A stretch of 64,000 bases of DNA from Allopusillimonas ginsengisoli. Its GTDB lineage: Bacteria > Pseudomonadota > Gammaproteobacteria > Burkholderiales > Burkholderiaceae_B. The DNA is taken from the NCBI RefSeq assembly GCF_004153455.1, contig NZ_SDQE01000002.1, forward strand, positions 496,001-560,000, given 5' to 3'. The translations under genes were made by a program, and so were the position numbers. The notes under the pieces were generated by a model that was not told where the DNA came from, searched no databases, and saw nothing but the letters and a program-made list of their open reading frames with translations. Shown piece after piece: positions 57,353-64,000 of this stretch (position 1 is its first letter; every line of letters starts with the position of its first letter).

Positions 57353-58999
57353 ATGTCCACCTTGATCTCACCCATTACCCGGCGGCGCATTGCCGCCTTT
57401 TCTTTGGCGCTCTTGCCGACCGGTGCCTGGATGGCTGCCGCCACCTGGGGCAGCCATATGCACTGGCGAGACTGGAACGCCAAAACGTTCTGGCATTTTG
57501 TGATGCTGACGCCGCAGTACCCAGTGCTCTACGGCTCACTGGGCATCGGTCTGGTTCTCGCATTGGCACTTATCCTGCTTATCGGGCGCACCGCCAGAAC
57601 CGAAGGGTTTGAGGGCGCTGCCTACAAACGCTTTGTGCGTGGCACACGCACTACCTCGGCAAAAAGCCTGGCCCGCCAGTGCGAAGAAAGTGGCAAACAG
57701 CAAATCGACGTGGGCGGCATCCCCATGCCGCCTGCCAATGAGAACCTGCATTTGCTCATCAGCGGTGCCACGGGCTCCGGTAAATCGGTGTTGTTGCGCC
57801 ACATGGCCGCTTCGGTACTCAAGCGCTCACAGCACGACATGAGCAACCGTTTGCTCGGCCAAACGCCCGAGCGCAACGACCGGATGATCGTGATTGACCC
57901 CAATGGGGACCTACTCAGCAAATTCTGGCAACCCAGCGATGTGATCCTGAATCCCTACGATGCCCGCAGCCAGGGCTGGTCGTTCTTCAATGAGGTTCGT
58001 GCCGATTACGACTGGAAGCGGCTGGCCCACTCTATGGTTCCCATGAGCCAGGACAAGAACGCTGAAGAATGGAACGACTTCGGCCGCCTGCTGCTACGCG
58101 AGACGGCCAAGAAACTCCACCAATTGCAGGGCAACGAGGCTAGCGTCATGGATCTGTTTCGCCTATGCACCATCGAAGACCCCAAGGTTTTGAAGCAATT
58201 CCTAGAAGGCACCCTGGCCGAATCTCTTTTTGTTGGTTCCAGCGAAGCCAGTAAGGCGCTGTCTTCCGCCCGCTTCGTACTGTCGAACAAGCTGTCCGAG
58301 CACACCGGCATGAAGCCCGGGCGGTTCTCCATCCGAGATTGGCTGGCCAAGCCCGATGGTGGGAACCTGTACATCAACTGGCGCGAAGACATGATGAGTT
58401 CCATGAAGCCACTGGTGTCGTCATGGGCCGACGTATTCATCACGTCCATCTTATCCATGCCTGAAGGCACCCACCGACGCTGGTGGTTGTTCATTGATGA
58501 GTTGGCTAGCCTGGAAGCCCTGCCGTCACTGGAAGCGGGCCTAACCAAGGGCCGGAAAAACGGCCTGCGCATCGTGGCGGGATTACAGAGTACATCCCAA
58601 CTGGAACACATCTACGGTCGCACCATGGCCACTACCATTCGAGCCAGTTTCCGCAACCTGGCTGTCCTGGGCGGCTCCCGCACCGACCCACAGACGGCGA
58701 AAGACATGAGTGAAAGCCTCGGCACACATGAGGTTGAACGACCCAAGTACAGCATCAGTCGAAGTGTGGACCATCGCAACACCTCGGACAATATGGATCG
58801 GACGTCAGAAGACGTCGTGACGGCGGCGCAGATACAGGCGCTGCCTGCGCTGGGCGGGTACGTGGCCTTGGCGGGGGATTTCCCGATTGCTAGGGTGAGC
58901 TTGCCGTTCAGAGAGTTTGCTGTGGCTGCGGCGGCGTTTGAGGAGTCTGGGAAAGTGCTGAATGCTGCTGCGTCCACAACGACACTATCACACAGATAG
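57353..58999 (+). CDS. TrwB/TraD-type coupling protein
   Basis: A 548-residue VirD4-like ATPase that links the relaxase to the VirB channel. Two N-terminal membrane helices, Walker A LLISGATGSGKSVLLRHMA (GATGSGKS at 138-145), then MIVIDPNGDLLSKFW, and the Walker B WWLFIDELASLEALPSLE, the hallmark of TrwB. It ends with AGDFPIARVSLPFREFA. GAGGA fixes ATG 57353. In IncW plasmids a relaxase gene follows trwB; here a reversed unrelated operon follows. It is complete, so the coupling function may be intact. Confidence 0.92.
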   Translation: MSTLISPITRRRIAAFSLALLPTGAWMAAATWGSHMHWRDWNAKTFWHFVMLTPQYPVLYGSLGIGLVLALALILLIGRTARTEGFEGAAYKRFVRGTRTTSAKSLARQCEESGKQQIDVGGIPMPPANENLHLLISGATGSGKSVLLRHMAASVLKRSQHDMSNRLLGQTPERNDRMIVIDPNGDLLSKFWQPSDVILNPYDARSQGWSFFNEVRADYDWKRLAHSMVPMSQDKNAEEWNDFGRLLLRETAKKLHQLQGNEASVMDLFRLCTIEDPKVLKQFLEGTLAESLFVGSSEASKALSSARFVLSNKLSEHTGMKPGRFSIRDWLAKPDGGNLYINWREDMMSSMKPLVSSWADVFITSILSMPEGTHRRWWLFIDELASLEALPSLEAGLTKGRKNGLRIVAGLQSTSQLEHIYGRTMATTIRASFRNLAVLGGSRTDPQTAKDMSESLGTHEVERPKYSISRSVDHRNTSDNMDRTSEDVVTAAQIQALPALGGYVALAGDFPIARVSLPFREFAVAAAAFEESGKVLNAAASTTTLSHR

Positions 59000-59372
59000 A
59001 GTATCCCGAAGGTTGAAAGCGGCCACAAGCGGTCATCCGCCGATGCTTGGATACAGAAGTTCAAGCGTCACCCCTACCTTCGACCGGCCTTTCAGAGACT
59101 GACTTCGTCTATCGAAAGATCGGAAAGAGCCGTCGATCATGCCGCATTGTCTGCAGCCGACTGCGAACCGCTGCTTTCGGAAAGTACAAATTGAACGCTG
59201 CCTCTGTTCGTCACACGAGCTACTGTCACAGTATTGACAAGACATTGTGCGCTCAATCTCACACACTCCAGCGCCAACCTGTCCAAAAGGTCCTGCATGT
59301 GTCGGTCTACTTTTGGGCGTGGTTAGAATGCGCCTTATGCCGAAGACTTCGAACTCAACCGCGTGCGCATAA
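59000..59372. other. Junction region after trwB, no clear gene
   Basis: A 373-bp stretch without a supported gene, between the trwB stop and the end of the leftward operon. A TTGACA box occurs at about 59235, without a convincing -10. Open frames here are short with atypical composition. It may hold remnants of the sequence lost when the right-hand operon was inserted. Confidence 0.4.
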
Positions 59373-60548
59373 TCACGAGTAGGCCTCCCCGGTTAGTAAT
59401 AACGCAGATATCGCTGGCTTAGATGCCTTGAGATCACTAATTGACGCCACGTATCGCTTAGGTTCCGCATGCGGGATAGTCACACCGTATTTTTCGTTCA
59501 GGTCGGCCGGCCGCATCTCGAAACAGGCTAGGCCGGCGCCTAGTGTCACCAACTTACTTCCAAGAGGAGTCACGACGATCCGACATCCACCGAGGATTTT
59601 CATGCTGTCTTTGTACCGTTGCATTGCCTTCAGCAGCTGTCTATACGCCTCGAAAGGGTTCGATTCATGCACATGCAGGATGTTCGTCGTCGGAGTTCTG
59701 CGGCTTGCAAACAGCGGCGTTTCATATTCCACTAACAGGTCATCGGCACGCCGTGGATTCAAGGATGGATGCGGCAATACGGGGCAGATCTCGGCTGAAT
59801 CGGGAATCTCAGCGAGTGCCATCAGCTTTTGCAACTGACTTACCCTGTTCTCGCCTAAGATCGGAAACCAAACGAGCGGCCAATCTCGCACGCTCTCGGC
59901 ATGCATTGCTCCGGTGAAACCTGGGATTAGAACGAGGTCATTGCTTGGATCTTCTGCGCGAATGTTCCCGTCTAATCTAGCGTCCTCTGCTACCAAAACT
60001 TGAAAATTGACACCATTTGCCGCCAAAGGATGCACGCCATCCGTCTCGATGGCTTTGTTTGGAACGAGTTTATTAAGCAGGCTGGTTAGCAATGCTAGGT
60101 AGGCAACCCGTGGCAACGAACTAACGTCAAGAACGATGTCAGTTTGATCGGTGACCTCTTCGAGCACCGCCCTGATTCCTATGGCAAGTGCGGTGCTTGC
60201 ACTAATGTCATCTTCGTCATTAGAGGATGAGCCAATAGGAATGTTCTTCACTGCACCGAGCGGTGCGAAGATCATCTCTAGACGCGCAGCATTTTCCTCG
60301 GTAAGTTGGGCGATATCGTCTTCGAGTTCGTAATCTGTGAAGCCAACCAGTAGCAACTGGGCTTTCTCGACATTTCGGCCAGACGCTTGCAGACTCTTGA
60401 CCATCTCCTGCATAACATATTGGGCGCGAACGTCGAAGCCGCGGCCTGCAATGTAGAGTAGGCGCAGTGGGCGTTTGTCGAAAAGCCGATCCCACATTTC
60501 GTGGACGCCATTTCCTCTGCGAAAGACATAGTGGTCCCAAAGCATCAT
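59373..60548 (-). CDS. Unrecognised Rossmann-like protein, last gene of the four-gene operon
   Basis: A 391-residue protein that I do not recognise. The start is ATG 60548, whose A is the last base of the preceding stop (TAATG). GGAG lies eight bases before it. Pattern: PLRLLYIAGRGFDVRAQYVM near residues 27-46 (a glycine-rich loop after a strand), IVLDVSSLPRVAYLALL at 138-154 and IVVTPLGSKLVTLGAGLACF at 324-343. These fit repeated strand-loop-helix units of a nucleotide-binding Rossmann-like fold. No membrane helix or nuclease motif is seen. Its genetic linkage to a phosphoribosyltransferase, an ATPase and a HAD suggests a sensor or effector of a small-molecule system. Confidence 0.7.
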   Translation of the reverse strand: MMLWDHYVFRRGNGVHEMWDRLFDKRPLRLLYIAGRGFDVRAQYVMQEMVKSLQASGRNVEKAQLLLVGFTDYELEDDIAQLTEENAARLEMIFAPLGAVKNIPIGSSSNDEDDISASTALAIGIRAVLEEVTDQTDIVLDVSSLPRVAYLALLTSLLNKLVPNKAIETDGVHPLAANGVNFQVLVAEDARLDGNIRAEDPSNDLVLIPGFTGAMHAESVRDWPLVWFPILGENRVSQLQKLMALAEIPDSAEICPVLPHPSLNPRRADDLLVEYETPLFASRRTPTTNILHVHESNPFEAYRQLLKAMQRYKDSMKILGGCRIVVTPLGSKLVTLGAGLACFEMRPADLNEKYGVTIPHAEPKRYVASISDLKASKPAISALLLTGEAYS

Positions 60549-62470
60549 TAGCTCATCTCCAGACGGGGGCGGCGGCTTGGAACAAGGCCTCGCTCCATCC
60601 AATCGATCATCTGGGCCGCAGTAATATCCTGCCAACCGCCTTGCTGCAGGGGTAGGCCGTAGTGAGCGCAGAGAGTTCTGTTCAAATAAAAAACCGTCCC
60701 GCTTTCCCTCGATGTGCTGGCGGCACTGGGTTTGGCCAGCAATAAATTTTCCGCAGCACATTCTGCCAGAACACGAATCAGTAATGTGCTTTTTTCGGCC
60801 AACGCCTTCGTTGCAGTCTCGAGTTTGTTTAACTCGCTCTGGGAAAGACGCACTCCAGTAACACCCGGTGCATACGGGGCGTTGGGTGCGAATGTTCTCT
60901 CGCGGCAGAAAACCCCAACGGAGTCGAGAAGTCGCTGTGCTCGCAAGCCCTCAGTGTGACTCTTGGGGATGAACTCCCGCTTTCGTTTGGCAGCATCCTT
61001 GAGTAGCTTTTCTTGCTCGACCGGAGTCAGAGTCGGCTCTGGCTTCCGTAGCACCTGCTTGTTCTGCATGCCGATATAGAGTGCTGCCGCCAGCGACAGC
61101 AACTCTTCGACGTTGGCACTAGCCATCACACATAGTCGATCGAGGCCGAAGTAGTATGGAATCTTTAACTCGTCGTGCATGAAGATTTCTGCAGCACCTC
61201 TGACCTGTGAGTTATCACGATCATCTAACTCTTCTGTTGACAGGGCCATGTCCAAGGTCATCTGACGCTTCGATTCGTCCCGCGCAAGCAGGATGCGCGT
61301 GACATAAAGTTCAACCAAGGACTCGATGCTGGCTTCTGCACTGTGCTGTTCCGCTCGAGCTAGCCACTCGCTATATCGAACATTGCTCTCGTGTCGTTGG
61401 ACATCGTCGCGAAATACCTGAATGCCTTTGCCTACCTCAGTCCGGATTTCGTCAAGAACAAGCTCTCCACGTAGGCACTGTGAGAATGAATTAGATGCGA
61501 CTACGTCCTGTATCAACATCCGCCGGTCCAAGATACTTTGCGCAAACGTCGCGAATTGGTGTGGGCCACGTGGCCCGCTCCACATTTCCTCTAAGGCATA
61601 CTCGTGTATGTCTCTGCCTTGTCGAACACCTTGCGAGAGCAGGCCCTCGCCGAGTGCAATGGACCGCTCGGCAAGCCAGATCGGGATGGTAGAACGCTGA
61701 ACCGCGAGTTCATCGATTAAAAGCGCGCGCTGTTTTCGCCGAAGCTTGTGAAGATCGTCGATCATCAGCAAACGTTTCGATGCGACTTGTCGCCCTTCGA
61801 CGACAAACTGCACGGTTTGAAGCCATAGCGCGCCCTCGAACTGAAAATGGGAAGGCATGTCTGCAGTGTCCTGCTCAACGAACGCATCGAGCTGGGCATA
61901 CACACGCTGCTCATGCTGCTCCGCCCAATCGGCAAGTTCTCGAGCGCTGGCAAGGCGTGGGATGCCTTTCAGGTCGTTAATCTGCTCGGCATACTCTAAT
62001 CGGATGGTATCGAACTGATCGGGCGTGCTGAAGCCAAGCAGCGCTCCGACACTACGAAGCGTTCTCAGCACTACGCGACAGTCGAGCAGCGCGCGAAATA
62101 ATCCCTCCTGTTTAATATCGGCACCTGGCGGAAGGTCTGCATAGCCCGAAGCGCAGGAGAGCAATACACCAAGAAACTGAGGCCGATCCTGATCGTCCAA
62201 CACCCCTTTCGAGACTAGTTTCTGAAAAGACTCGGCCAACTCTGGGGAGCGACGAGCGGTCCAGAACGCGCGCAGTGCTGTTGGCGTGAATGCTCGTAGT
62301 AGCGTAGTTTTTCCCGCGCCGGGGGCACTTCTGAAGATATGGATACCGCCCTTGAAGGCGTCCTCGGCTAGCTTCTCCAAAATCTTCGGCGAGAACAGGC
62401 GAACGAAGTCGAGATCTGATGTCGTACGCTCCGACATACGTTCTAAGAATGGATTAGTGTGATAAGCCAT
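60548..62470 (-). CDS. P-loop ATPase (Orc/Cdc6- or STAND-like)
   Basis: A 640-residue ATPase. The start ATG 62470 shares one base with the upstream stop (TGATG). Walker A RSAPGAGKTTLLRAF lies at about residues 47-61, Walker B RLLMIDDLHKLRRKQR at about 233-248. The layout after it (an arginine-bearing helical part and a C-terminal basic region) recalls Orc/Cdc6-like or STAND AAA ATPases found in defence loci. No nuclease or protease domain is visible in the C-terminal half, which is helical and charged (PVEQEKLLKDAAKRKREF). It probably acts as the sensor or switch of the operon. Function inferred. Confidence 0.75.
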   Translation of the reverse strand: MAYHTNPFLERMSERTTSDLDFVRLFSPKILEKLAEDAFKGGIHIFRSAPGAGKTTLLRAFTPTALRAFWTARRSPELAESFQKLVSKGVLDDQDRPQFLGVLLSCASGYADLPPGADIKQEGLFRALLDCRVVLRTLRSVGALLGFSTPDQFDTIRLEYAEQINDLKGIPRLASARELADWAEQHEQRVYAQLDAFVEQDTADMPSHFQFEGALWLQTVQFVVEGRQVASKRLLMIDDLHKLRRKQRALLIDELAVQRSTIPIWLAERSIALGEGLLSQGVRQGRDIHEYALEEMWSGPRGPHQFATFAQSILDRRMLIQDVVASNSFSQCLRGELVLDEIRTEVGKGIQVFRDDVQRHESNVRYSEWLARAEQHSAEASIESLVELYVTRILLARDESKRQMTLDMALSTEELDDRDNSQVRGAAEIFMHDELKIPYYFGLDRLCVMASANVEELLSLAAALYIGMQNKQVLRKPEPTLTPVEQEKLLKDAAKRKREFIPKSHTEGLRAQRLLDSVGVFCRERTFAPNAPYAPGVTGVRLSQSELNKLETATKALAEKSTLLIRVLAECAAENLLLAKPSAASTSRESGTVFYLNRTLCAHYGLPLQQGGWQDITAAQMIDWMERGLVPSRRPRLEMS

Positions 62471-63576
62471 CAGAATTCTCGATGCCGGCTGACGCGCGGA
62501 AACAAACCGAAAGGTGTGTTTGACTCCGGCCCCCACAGCATGTAGATTGAATTGTTCGGGGAGTTATGCGAAAGAACAACGGGTAATGCGCAGCCAGCAA
62601 AGCCCATACGGGCATCAGACGTTCCGCCTACTGCAATGTGCTTGTCAGTCGCTCTGGCGTCGTAATAGTCGGTTTTTTCCAGAAGAGCACGAATCTTTGG
62701 ATCAGACTCACGTTTGAGCGAAGTTTCAGGTTCGATCGGGCATAGCACCCGAACCTGCAGCGGCTTGTAGCCTTTTTCGGAAGTAAAGCGTTCAGACCAG
62801 TATTCGATGTGGTCGATGGCCTGACGTGTCGCAGTGTAGAGGAGGAGGAAGACTTCATAGTGAGAGGTATCCACAAGATCGCCTCGATGAAGGCGTTCGT
62901 ATATCTTCCTAATCTTCCCTTTAAAGGTTCGTTTCTCGCTGTCATACCGGATATAGGTATTACCGCTGCCAGAAAAGTCATCAAGTAACCAGATCAAGTT
63001 GAAACGGGGCCGCTCAAGTTGGAACTCGGAATCCGTAAGTGAGGCTTTCAACTCCTTGAGCATGTCATCGGCCTTTTCATCACTCAGCTCATAGGCTTGC
63101 CATATCTGCTCGTTCGTGATGTCGCCGCCGCTTGCGCGCCGCAATTCGTTGGTGCGAGCGCCGTCGCTCAATCCCAAATATAAAGATTTAAGTCGAAGTT
63201 CGTTGAAGCGAGGGTGGCCTGAAATCTTCCCGACGAGGTGCGCAGAGATGTCGTGCTCTTCGGCGACGAGACGCATGCACTCTTGAACAATCAGGTCCGG
63301 ATATGCAGTGCTTACTAGATGAGTGAATTCAGCATCAGAGAAGTACACCAGTCTACGAGTCACGAGTTCAAGCGCAGCTTCACGATCTTCGGGGCTGAAT
63401 TGATCAAGCCAAAGTGCCAGACTCTCGATAAAACGACGCCCAGGCCCAAACTGTTGATAGTGATCGTATTTGTAGTCTGCGAGCAACTGCAGAGTTGGCA
63501 AGAAACGCGGAGGGGCATCAAGGTCTCTCCAGTCCATTACCTTTGCAAGTAGTTGTGCTGCGTTATGGTCATGCAT
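62470..63576 (-). CDS. Phosphoribosyltransferase-like protein
   Basis: A 368-residue protein. After a helical N-terminal third, a motif RPRFNLIWLLDDFSGSGNTY (residues 189-208; LDDFSGSGNT at 198-207) matches the PRPP-binding loop of type I phosphoribosyltransferases (hydrophobic strand, two acids, then GSGxT). LYLGLSDGARTNELRR (133-148) may be the substrate hood. The end of the gene overlaps the ATPase start. Its own start ATG 63576 overlaps the HAD stop by eight bases. The domain resembles the PRTase-like families described in conflict systems by Aravind and co-workers (from memory, not searched). The nucleobase used is unknown. Confidence 0.72.
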   Translation of the reverse strand: MHDHNAAQLLAKVMDWRDLDAPPRFLPTLQLLADYKYDHYQQFGPGRRFIESLALWLDQFSPEDREAALELVTRRLVYFSDAEFTHLVSTAYPDLIVQECMRLVAEEHDISAHLVGKISGHPRFNELRLKSLYLGLSDGARTNELRRASGGDITNEQIWQAYELSDEKADDMLKELKASLTDSEFQLERPRFNLIWLLDDFSGSGNTYIRYDSEKRTFKGKIRKIYERLHRGDLVDTSHYEVFLLLYTATRQAIDHIEYWSERFTSEKGYKPLQVRVLCPIEPETSLKRESDPKIRALLEKTDYYDARATDKHIAVGGTSDARMGFAGCALPVVLSHNSPNNSIYMLWGPESNTPFGLFPRVSRHREF

Positions 63577-64000
63577 GGCTGGATGACTCCGTCTGCTCTG
63601 GAGGCGAAAGGCGTACGGAGAACGACCCCGAGTCGTCTTCTACGAAACGCTCCAGGTACCAAAGCGAGGCATCCACGTCACGCCGATGAGAAGGCGCAAG
63701 CTTCCAGCCTCGATCGAGTCTGCGCGATGGGACGTCCACGCTAAGTGAAAACCGGTGTTCAAGAAGCGCAGAGTCGTTTCCGGGCCACGCCCCTTGGTCG
63801 CCTAGTGTCAAAATCTCATATGGGTCAATCTTGAAATTTTGGATAATGTGCGCGATAAGCCTAGATTTGGTGATGCCCGCAGCGAGTATATCGACAGAGT
63901 GCTTGCTCTTAACCATGCTAGAGAGGTCGAGACCAGCTTGACGCAGTGCGTCTGCCACGACGAACCACATGTTGTCGGTAGGTAGGCCCTCTCGGAATCG
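63569..64000 (-). CDS. HAD-superfamily hydrolase, partial (N-terminus beyond the window)
   Basis: The last 143 residues of a longer protein. The frame is open to the window edge (RFREGLPTDN precedes the first ATG at 63970), so the true start is to the right. DPYEILTLGDQGAWPGNDSALLEH carries the C-terminal GD-x-G...ND acid motif of HAD phosphatases (like sucrose-phosphatase types), and VKSKHSVDILAAGITKS resembles the Lys motif region. The nucleophile DxD would lie in the missing part. It overlaps the PRTase-like gene by eight bases, so the proteins are made together. A phosphatase acting on the PRTase product is a plausible inference. Confidence 0.68.
   Translation of the reverse strand, partial: RFREGLPTDNMWFVVADALRQAGLDLSSMVKSKHSVDILAAGITKSRLIAHIIQNFKIDPYEILTLGDQGAWPGNDSALLEHRFSLSVDVPSRRLDRGWKLAPSHRRDVDASLWYLERFVEDDSGSFSVRLSPPEQTESSSHA

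Follow-up and report, generated by a model that had tools for sequence, protein, structure and literature searches.

A six-gene operon on a mobile element, recurring across many kinds of bacteria, is described here, and it probably represents an undescribed kind of anti-virus system. The operon combines a CARF-type sensor, an ORC/CDC6-like ATPase, a phosphoribosyltransferase-fold protein (PRTase), a fused sugar-phosphate enzyme (SIS-HAD), a NADAR protein and an RHH-like protein. Our preferred reading, held tentatively and at somewhat below an even chance, is that of a horizontally mobile anti-phage operon in which a PRPP-using PRTase effector, switched by the CARF protein together with the ATPase, makes a product that NADAR erases. 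The defence role suggested in a preliminary description of this DNA was retained as a likely reading.

Gene Organization and Genomic Location

The window, that is, the whole stretch of 64,000 nucleotides that was analyzed, holds the 3' part of the operon, and the rest reaches 2.3 kb beyond the window edge. Positions 59000–64000 of the window were identical to the genome stretch L002, and coordinates above 64000 carry the window's count on past its edge. In operon order, the genes encode the RHH-like regulator of 62 aa (66159–66347; L002:7160–7348), which lies outside the window and upstream of NADAR; the NADAR protein of 199 aa (65554–66153; L002:6555–7154), likewise outside the window and upstream of SIS-HAD; a fusion of a SIS domain with a HAD-IIB phosphatase of 662 aa (63569–65557, minus strand; L002:4570–6558), of which the window contains only the C-terminal 143 codons (63569–64000); a PRTase-CE protein of 368 aa (62470–63576, minus strand); an ORC/CDC6-like P-loop ATPase of 640 aa (60548–62470, minus strand); and a CARF6-family sensor of 391 aa with tandem Rossmann-like halves (59373–60548, minus strand).

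The preliminary description had reported four overlapping genes in a single coupled operon. The frames were indeed open on the minus strand, with overlaps of 8 bases between SIS-HAD and PRTase, 1 base between PRTase and ATPase, and 1 base between ATPase and CARF, and the single coupled operon was upheld, but its four-gene extent was not: on extension of the sequence, the NADAR and RHH-like genes were found to precede SIS-HAD, and a four-gene system was thereby ruled out. The NADAR and SIS-HAD genes overlap by 4 bases, and a 5-base gap separates the RHH-like gene from NADAR. Family matches agreed with the earlier identification of the HAD, PRTase and ORC/CDC6-like ATPase proteins, the HAD part being additionally fused to a SIS sugar-phosphate domain, whereas the 391-aa protein, previously called unknown, was recognized as a CARF-type sensor. 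The operon sits between conjugation genes, in agreement with its proposed status as cargo of a conjugative element, and nearby genes encode, among others, HNH, PDC-S06 (2.8e-279) and OLD/Gabija-like proteins.

The CARF Protein and the ATPase

The CARF protein matched the PADLOC family CARF6 (PDLC01910) at 8.3e-115 over residues 2–390, and its AlphaFold2 model had a pLDDT of 93.5. According to PMC4012209, the ligands of CARF domains are presumed to be of nucleotide type, and the domains carry the signature [DN]X[ST]XXX[RK] after core strand 4. The stretch D141-V-S143-S-L-P-R147 agreed with this signature and directly followed strand 137–141, which is the fourth core strand of the model if strand 28–36 counts as the first; D141 and S143 were conserved in 67/67 sequences and R147 in 63/67. 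A Foldseek search with the model placed Csm6 (9w3u) at rank 18 (E = 1.8e-4, probability 0.99, TMq 0.37), below KCC C-terminal domains, KaiC and universal stress proteins. The ATPase matched PF24389 at 1.2e-21 (77.6 bits, cut-off 27), with the Walker A residues G51 and G53 conserved in 38/38 and K54 and T55 in 37/38 sequences, and the Walker B residue D238 in 38/38. Searches of PDB sequences with profiles of the CARF protein, the PRTase and the ATPase returned nothing convincing.

The genome that carries the operon had no match to the Cas10 models Csm1 and Cmr2, which led us to reject a type III CRISPR system as the source of the CARF ligand. When these two models were run against 42 genomes, namely this one and the genomes of 41 loci out of the 80 described below, 33 matched neither at E <= 0.001; the other nine had some match, with five exceeding a curated cut-off. 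In the genomes without a match to Csm1 or Cmr2, the cyclic oligoadenylate of type III CRISPR therefore seems unavailable. With the PRTase coupled to a CARF protein where no Cas10 was detected, the identity of the ligand sensed by CARF proteins of this kind becomes of interest.

The PRTase and Its Relatives

The PRTase matched PF24390 at 1.4e-15 (58.4 bits, cut-off 27; residues 56–361, profile positions 4–253) and the PADLOC model of the retron PRTase_III-A at 1.3e-16. Its AlphaFold2 model had a pLDDT of 93.8, and Foldseek matches of this model to known PRTases were weak, the best having an E-value of 3.9e-3 and none reaching E <= 0.001. The sequence LLDDFSGSGNT fits DD..(S/T)G, which we take to be the PRPP-binding motif; D199, D200 and G205 were conserved in 58/58 sequences and S204 in 57/58. 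Three relatives of the PRTase occurred in viral contigs, and none was found in the phage collection searched.

To place the family in a wider context, 22 PF24390 loci were sampled separately in the class and phylum. A reverse transcriptase stood beside the PRTase at ten of them, none of which showed a NADAR, and NADAR stood beside the PRTase at five, with no ATPase or CARF protein in the stretch. PF24390 is next to RVT_1 at L192. PRTase-ATPase-CARF trios made up two further loci and the full operon type four, one of which, L224, coincides with L048 of the main set; the remaining locus, L212, was left unassigned. Four of the PRTase-NADAR pairs were scanned, and they scored above the cut-offs of NCBIfam DS32_1 and DS32_2. 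The ATPase and CARF6 proteins, for their part, also occurred with HD-CE, with a serine/threonine kinase fusion, with a ParA-like fusion and with PRTase-CE alone, and six such loci (L162–L166 and L213) had no SIS-HAD, PfkB or NADAR in the stretch. The PF24389 cut-off was exceeded in nine other genomes, of which five were followed; one scan of a 3.6-kb contig (G224) and of three genomes with short P-loop matches gave no result.

NADAR, the RHH-like Gene and the Inverted Repeat

The NADAR protein matched PF08719 at 2e-26 (93.6 bits, cut-off 35.1), is of the YbiA type, and also matched TIGR02464, the riboflavin-intermediate N-glycosidase, with 83.6 bits. Residues E57, K64 and E149 were conserved in 13/13 sequences, and the spacing of E57 and K64 equals that of the catalytic E88 and K95 given for the E. 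coli C7 NADAR in PMC11543638. The same source describes NADAR as hydrolyzing ADP-ribosyl-guanine, and the enzyme class is known to cleave N-glycosidic bonds between ribose and guanine. All eight plasmid NADARs with 61–77% identity belonged to this operon type, and the next best had 48%, indicating that the operon NADAR belongs to a dedicated subfamily. This, together with the separate pairing of NADAR with other PRTase-CE genes, led us to reject NADAR as a passenger.

The RHH-like protein had weak matches, all below cut-off, and a same-strand homologue was found upstream of NADAR in 20 of the 45 other NADAR loci examined. Farther upstream lies a candidate operator, a perfect 18-bp inverted repeat with a 9-bp loop (66387–66431; L002:7388–7432). 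This repeat did not recur at any of 16 other loci inspected; two of these carried repeats of 12 and 17 bp whose loops measured 59 and 66 bases.

SIS-HAD and the PfkB Kinase

SIS-HAD matched HAD-IIB at 7.1e-11 and NagB-II at 1.7e-6, as well as SIS and HAD chains in PDB, and residues D403, D405, K564, D587, N594 and D595 were conserved in 39/39 sequences. The SIS part is similar to GlcN6P deaminase and bears a weak resemblance to fructosamine-6-P deglycase, and the PfkB kinase present in other lineages is similar to sugar kinases, among them fructokinase, ribokinase and ketohexokinase. Both SIS and PfkB look metabolic, which speaks against our preferred reading, as a writer-eraser pair alone does not explain them.

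Conservation and Spread of the Gene Set

A lack of conserved co-occurrence of the four genes across genomes had been named in the preliminary description as one finding that would refute it, and the gene set passed this check. Among 80 genome loci, 29 were without the flank asked for and were excluded from the count of presence and absence; at 50 of the other 51, SIS-HAD, PRTase, ATPase and CARF occurred together, and all 51 had NADAR, the PfkB kinase or both. No NADAR adjoined at 24 of the 51, indicating that the system can do without erasure by a linked NADAR. Each of the four proteins, searched alone, led to the same 17 plasmid records, nine of which were typed as conjugative or mobilizable; two of the plasmid matches, H16 and H17, were equal to H15 in identity and coverage. 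The operon type is broad, with 301 confirmed relatives in a genome scan, and often plasmid-borne, and among 61 genomes (its own and 60 relatives) the ATPase was present in its own only. A quickly built tree of 66 rows showed four long branches.

In the flanks, 110 proteins from 14 loci matched 40 PADLOC families at <= 1e-15, compared with four families (three names) for an equal number of control proteins (110) drawn from those 14 genomes, 18 control stretches having been sought of which four did not exist. This test counts families and not distinct proteins, and the 25 of the 40 families listed comprise seven names, each matched by one protein among those listed. For defence genes this amounted to a modest enrichment, a point that weighs against our preferred reading.

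Possible Role of the Operon

According to our preferred reading, a sensor-switch pair formed by the CARF protein and the ATPase would license the PRTase. The latter would spend PRPP to phosphoribosylate a nucleobase-type target, either in nucleic acid or in a nucleotide pool, and this modification would stop either the phage or the cell it has infected. NADAR would strip the phosphoribosyl mark as an eraser or antitoxin, and SIS-HAD, with the PfkB kinase in other lineages, may handle the sugar phosphate that is released or needed. The repeated pairing of the PRTase family with NADAR, whose chemistry is known, allows this concrete and testable guess at the PRTase activity. The fixed gene set, the association of the PRTase family with reverse transcriptases and with the DS32 pair, the dedicated NADAR subfamily, the CARF signature and the nearby HNH, PDC-S06 and OLD/Gabija-like genes favour this reading; the scores of the operon's own pair below the DS32 cut-offs, the loci where NADAR was not seen (24/51, and all ten with a reverse transcriptase), the weak PRTase matches and the low rank of Csm6 in the Foldseek searches weigh against it. 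A more specific version, possible though rather doubtful, would have the operon parallel DarT1-NADAR but run on PRPP: phosphoribose would be put on guanine-type bases of nucleic acid or nucleotides by the PRTase and erased by NADAR, and the CARF-ATPase pair would gate the reaction via a messenger other than the cyclic oligoadenylate of type III CRISPR, made or tuned by the operon's sugar-phosphate enzymes. If true, PRPP-fuelled phosphoribosylation would also account for what PRTase effectors do in type III retrons and in DS-32; PMC9122126 calls the mode of action of retron PRTase effectors unknown.

The chemistry in the preliminary description, a nucleoside-like product of PRTase and HAD, is a serious rival. 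It is not preferred, because the recurrent partners of the PRTase family in the 22 loci were a reverse transcriptase or NADAR. Also a rival, though a doubtful one, is a self-made signal, in which PRTase, SIS-HAD and PfkB would together produce a second messenger resembling a nucleotide or sugar phosphate for the CARF protein to read, with the ATPase as output and NADAR and HAD degrading the messenger. The nucleotide-type ligands ascribed to CARF domains (PMC4012209) and the nucleoside-type signal that PMC7824862 attributes to Ter PRTase and HAD proteins agree with such a signal, as does the lack of Csm1 and Cmr2 matches in this genome and, at E <= 0.001, in 33/42; it fits poorly with the ATPase-CARF6 modules that have HD, kinase or ParA-like partners or the PRTase alone, and no SIS-HAD, PfkB or NADAR in the stretches scanned, and with PRTase-NADAR pairs that exist without CARF.

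Two further explanations dispense with phage defence. Element maintenance by a PRTase toxin, a NADAR antitoxin and an RHH-like autoregulator, serving stability or plasmid-plasmid competition, appears improbable: the RHH-like gene directly upstream of NADAR here and in 20/45 other loci, the flanking conjugation genes and the service of NADAR as antitoxin to DarT1 (as reported in PMC11125620 and PMC11543638) speak for it, but a sensor and an ATPase exceed the needs of a maintenance module, 24/51 loci are without NADAR, and NCBI files the PRTase-NADAR pair as anti-phage. Slightly less probable again is a metabolic or metabolite-repair operon on mobile elements, for nucleotide or sugar salvage or for control of glycation or riboflavin-intermediate damage. 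The deaminase-like SIS domain, the sugar kinase-like PfkB and the TIGR02464 match of NADAR would suit such a function, whereas the sporadic spread (ATPase in 1/61 genomes), the conjugative or mobilizable plasmids (9/17), the CARF and ORC/CDC6-like ATPase partners, and PRTase relatives that adjoin reverse transcriptases or form the DS32 pair argue against it.

Comparison with Known Systems

The DS-32 system, comprising DS32_1 (NF053875, "phosphoribosyltransferase-like anti-phage protein") and DS32_2 (NF053876, "NADAR family anti-phage protein"), resembles the operon in that PRTase-CE (PF24390) adjoins NADAR, but within the stretches scanned the DS-32 pairs were not accompanied by a CARF protein, the ATPase, SIS-HAD or PfkB. 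The operon PRTase had no match to DS32_1 at E <= 0.1 and the operon NADAR scored 57.9 bits against DS32_2, below the cut-off of 240; with neither protein reaching its DS32 cut-off, membership in DS-32 was rejected. Type III retrons carry PRTase effectors, as noted in PMC12548924, and that of type III-A belongs to the same Pfam and PADLOC family as the operon PRTase. The operon is nevertheless no type III-A retron, as the required reverse transcriptase was absent from it and from the eight neighbours scanned; where the retron has an RT-DNA switch, the operon would have CARF and ATPase in its place. Another PRTase, paired with DprA, is described as anti-phage in PMC9122126.

The CARF6-ATPase modules share with the operon a PF24389 ATPase next to a CARF6 protein and differ in that the six examined show no SIS-HAD, PfkB or NADAR; a kinase-AAA-CARF fusion family has been described in PMC4012209. 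The Ter-associated loci, where PRTases and HAD phosphoesterases are thought to produce a nucleoside-type signal (PMC7824862), likewise have both proteins in one neighbourhood, and to this extent the earlier mention of Ter loci agrees with that source. The partners in the operon, however, are CARF, an ORC/CDC6-like ATPase and NADAR, and none of its six proteins is a Ter protein, the wider neighbourhood having been partly scanned. DarT1-NADAR, in which NADAR is the antitoxin (PMC11125620, PMC11543638), resembles the operon in pairing a transferase with a NADAR that cleaves a base-ribose N-glycosidic bond. DarT1, however, uses NAD+ as an ADP-ribosyltransferase (PMC11543638), whereas no ART family was matched by any of the six operon proteins, whose transferase is instead a predicted PRPP-type PRTase.

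Organization and Genomic Site of the Operon

The preliminary description had reported four overlapping genes, encoding a HAD phosphatase, a PRTase-like protein, an Orc/Cdc6-like ATPase and an unknown 391-aa protein, with a defence function inferred. The minus-strand frames are open in all four genes, with overlaps of 8, 1 and 1 bases. This set is correct within the window; however, extension to the right, into the stretch L002 (adding 58999 to an L002 position gives the window position), showed that the operon runs 2.3 kb further. The full HAD gene encodes a 662-aa SIS-HAD fusion (63569–65557, minus strand; numbers above 64000 extend the window's count). A NADAR gene (65554–66153) overlaps the SIS-HAD gene by 4 bases and is preceded by a gene for a 62-aa RHH-like protein (66159–66347). 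The operon is flanked by a TrwB-type coupling-protein gene (window 57353–58999) and a TrwC-type relaxase gene (L002:7773–10670), both on the opposite strand, and thus interrupts a block of conjugation genes. A site of the same kind was seen in a Sulfitobacter alexandrii plasmid (L007:2891–13261), where virB11 and the gene of a conjugative coupling protein flank the operon.

Next to the relaxase gene, L002:11497–18007 (window-equivalent 70496–77006) contains genes for an HNH protein (7.2e-13), a PDC-S06 (AAA_13) ATPase (2.8e-279) and an OLD/Gabija-like ATPase-TOPRIM protein; this cluster is likely a defence island in the same element. A matched flank test of 14 loci, which is not quantitative, found defence matches to be more numerous and stronger in the flanks than in control stretches.

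Identification of the Encoded Proteins

Pfam searches matched the NADAR protein (2e-26), the SIS-HAD protein (HAD Hydrolase_3, 1.8e-7), the PRTase (PRTase-CE, 1.4e-15) and the ATPase (ORC-CDC6-like, 1.2e-21). The 391-aa protein gave no match in the Pfam search but matched CARF6 of PADLOC at 8.3e-115. The SIS half was matched by NCBIfam NagB-II (1.7e-6), and a profile search found the SIS chains 2aml (7.7e-6), 8eol and 3hba (both 6.1e-5). PADLOC matched the PRTase to PRTase_III-A, a retron name (1.3e-16). Its AlphaFold2 model (pLDDT 93.8) matched solved structures weakly, with a best E of 3.9e-3 and none reaching 0.001; 16 of the 21 listed matches with a probability of at least 0.60 were named phosphoribosyltransferases, the other five having no functional name, and dynein and AAA proteins appeared at probabilities of 0.44 or less. 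The CARF protein was modelled by AlphaFold2 (pLDDT 93.5) as a tandem Rossmann-like fold. Its top structural matches were to universal stress proteins, KaiC and the C-terminal domains of KCC proteins; Csm6 ranked 18th (E 1.8e-4, prob 0.99, TMq 0.37).

The CARF signature, [DN]X[ST]XXX[RK] directly after core strand 4 (PMC4012209), occurs as D141-V-S143-S-L-P-R147 after strand 137–141, which is the fourth strand if 28–36 is counted first. D141 and S143 are kept in 67/67 aligned proteins and R147 in 63/67; K332, in the second half, is likewise kept in 67/67. Conservation extends to the catalytic motifs, with D199, D200 and G205 of the PRTase (58/58), D403, D405, K564, D587, N594 and D595 of the HAD domain (39/39), and G51, G53 and D238 (38/38) as well as K54 and T55 (37/38) of the ATPase. 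E57 and K64 of the NADAR protein (13/13) have the spacing of catalytic E88 and K95 in the E. coli C7 NADAR (PMC11543638).

Conservation and Spread of the System

A genome scan by PRTase alignment gave 333 pattern matches and 301 confirmed relatives, from which 80 loci were kept. By record title, the carriers, many of them metagenome-assembled, include Pseudomonadota, Bacteroidetes, Acidobacteriaceae, Planctomycetota, Chloroflexota, Armatimonadetes, Nitrospirae and Nostoc. Presence and absence were counted in the 51 loci with at least 6 kb upstream and at least 5.5 kb downstream. The expected co-occurrence of the four genes was borne out: SIS-HAD, PRTase, ATPase and CARF were joined in 50/51, the sole exception (L053) lacking ATPase and CARF. 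The order PRTase>ATPase>CARF held in all 71 loci with the three complete, and the median gaps, with starts set by script, were -4 (SIS-HAD/PRTase), -1 (PRTase/ATPase) and +2 bases (ATPase/CARF).

Since the PRTase had served to pick these loci, the four proteins were also used as separate queries against 72,556 plasmid records. The PRTase, CARF and SIS-HAD proteins each matched 18 records and the ATPase matched 17; all four shared 17 records, of which 8 are typed as conjugative, 1 as mobilizable and 8 as non-mobilizable. Of the three extra records, one held a lone PRTase (L020), one a 94-residue fragment of a CARF protein and one a match restricted to the HAD part. A second ATPase-CARF or PRTase-ATPase pair adjoins the operon in Sinorhizobium meliloti pRRI128_5 (L009) and Rhizobium tumorigenes pRt1078 (L006); the core can therefore be duplicated.

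Among the 51 loci, 24 had a PfkB sugar kinase without NADAR, 20 had NADAR without PfkB (19 with the full four-gene core, plus L053), seven had both and none had neither. In a quick tree built from 66 PRTases, PfkB changed state once, the 22 PfkB-less rows, including the window's, forming one side of a branch with SH-aLRT 100; NADAR was present in all 22, and its state changed five times. The absence of PfkB only where NADAR is present suggests that the two have overlapping roles. All eight plasmid NADARs at 61–77% identity to the window's lie inside this system, the next best being at 48%, which makes this NADAR a dedicated part of it. The PfkB kinases carry a CPxCG knuckle in most alignment rows and a C-terminal CxxC in many, suggesting a zinc site, which would be unusual among sugar kinases.

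Proposed Function

PRTases are effectors of type III retrons (PMC12548924), with a mode of action called unknown in PMC9122126, and NADARs cleave the DarT1-made bond of ribose to guanine N2 (PMC11543638). Taken together, these facts are most simply read as pointing to a PRPP-dependent writer with a NADAR eraser: CARF and ATPase would form a sensor-switch, the PRTase would be the effector, NADAR would reverse its mark or remove its product, and SIS-HAD, with PfkB in other lineages, would handle the sugar phosphate. A serious rival is a messenger-making pathway whose product is read by the CARF domain, as nucleotide-type products have been proposed for Ter-locus and mobile-element PRTases (PMC7824862, PMC5512222). 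As for a CRISPR source of CARF ligand, no Csm1 or Cmr2 match was found in the A. ginsengisoli genome, nor at E <= 0.001 in 33 of the 42 genomes searched. Less likely than either the writer–eraser or the messenger reading is a purely metabolic role.

Comparison with Known Systems

Elsewhere in the class, PF24389 (ORC/CDC6-like) ATPases adjoin proteins that match CARF6, and the partners of these modules differ: PRTase-CE in L162, HD-CE in the module at L164:67–3963, a ParA-like fusion in that at L163:8079–11856 and a protein-kinase fusion in that at L165:7790–11324, the last assigned in L166 by size and neighbours only. PF24390 (PRTase-CE) was sampled independently of this system in 369 class and 398 phylum genomes (5 and 17 above the cut-off, own genome aside). 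Reverse transcriptase adjoined the PRTase in 10/22 loci (retron-like), PRTase-NADAR pairs made up 5/22 (L189, L210, L211, L190, L191), PRTase-ATPase-CARF trios 2/22 (L162, L213) and the present system 4/22, three with NADAR (L224 is the L048 locus); L212 is left unassigned. The L190:4405–7630 and L191:5000–8152 pairs belong to type I restriction-modification loci, where HsdM and HsdR genes flank them. Each pair consists of PRTase-CE and a protein of 703–732 aa that begins with a NADAR domain; in L190 this protein also matches the HsdS specificity domain.

In NCBIfam scans, which covered four of the five pairs, every pair scanned exceeded the cut-offs of the anti-phage models DS32_1 (PRTase-like) and DS32_2 (NADAR), whereas the window's own proteins did not reach them. 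The DS32 name probably traces to DefensePredictor (PMC13092281), which has PRTase in a legend and NADAR domains in its text, although "DS-32" is absent from its main text. We found no description of this gene set in the literature searched, and likely papers outside that search may hold an earlier mention. Its parts are already known: CARF6 in PADLOC, PRTase-CE and ORC-CDC6-like in Pfam, and PRTase-NADAR, as anti-phage proteins, in NCBIfam.
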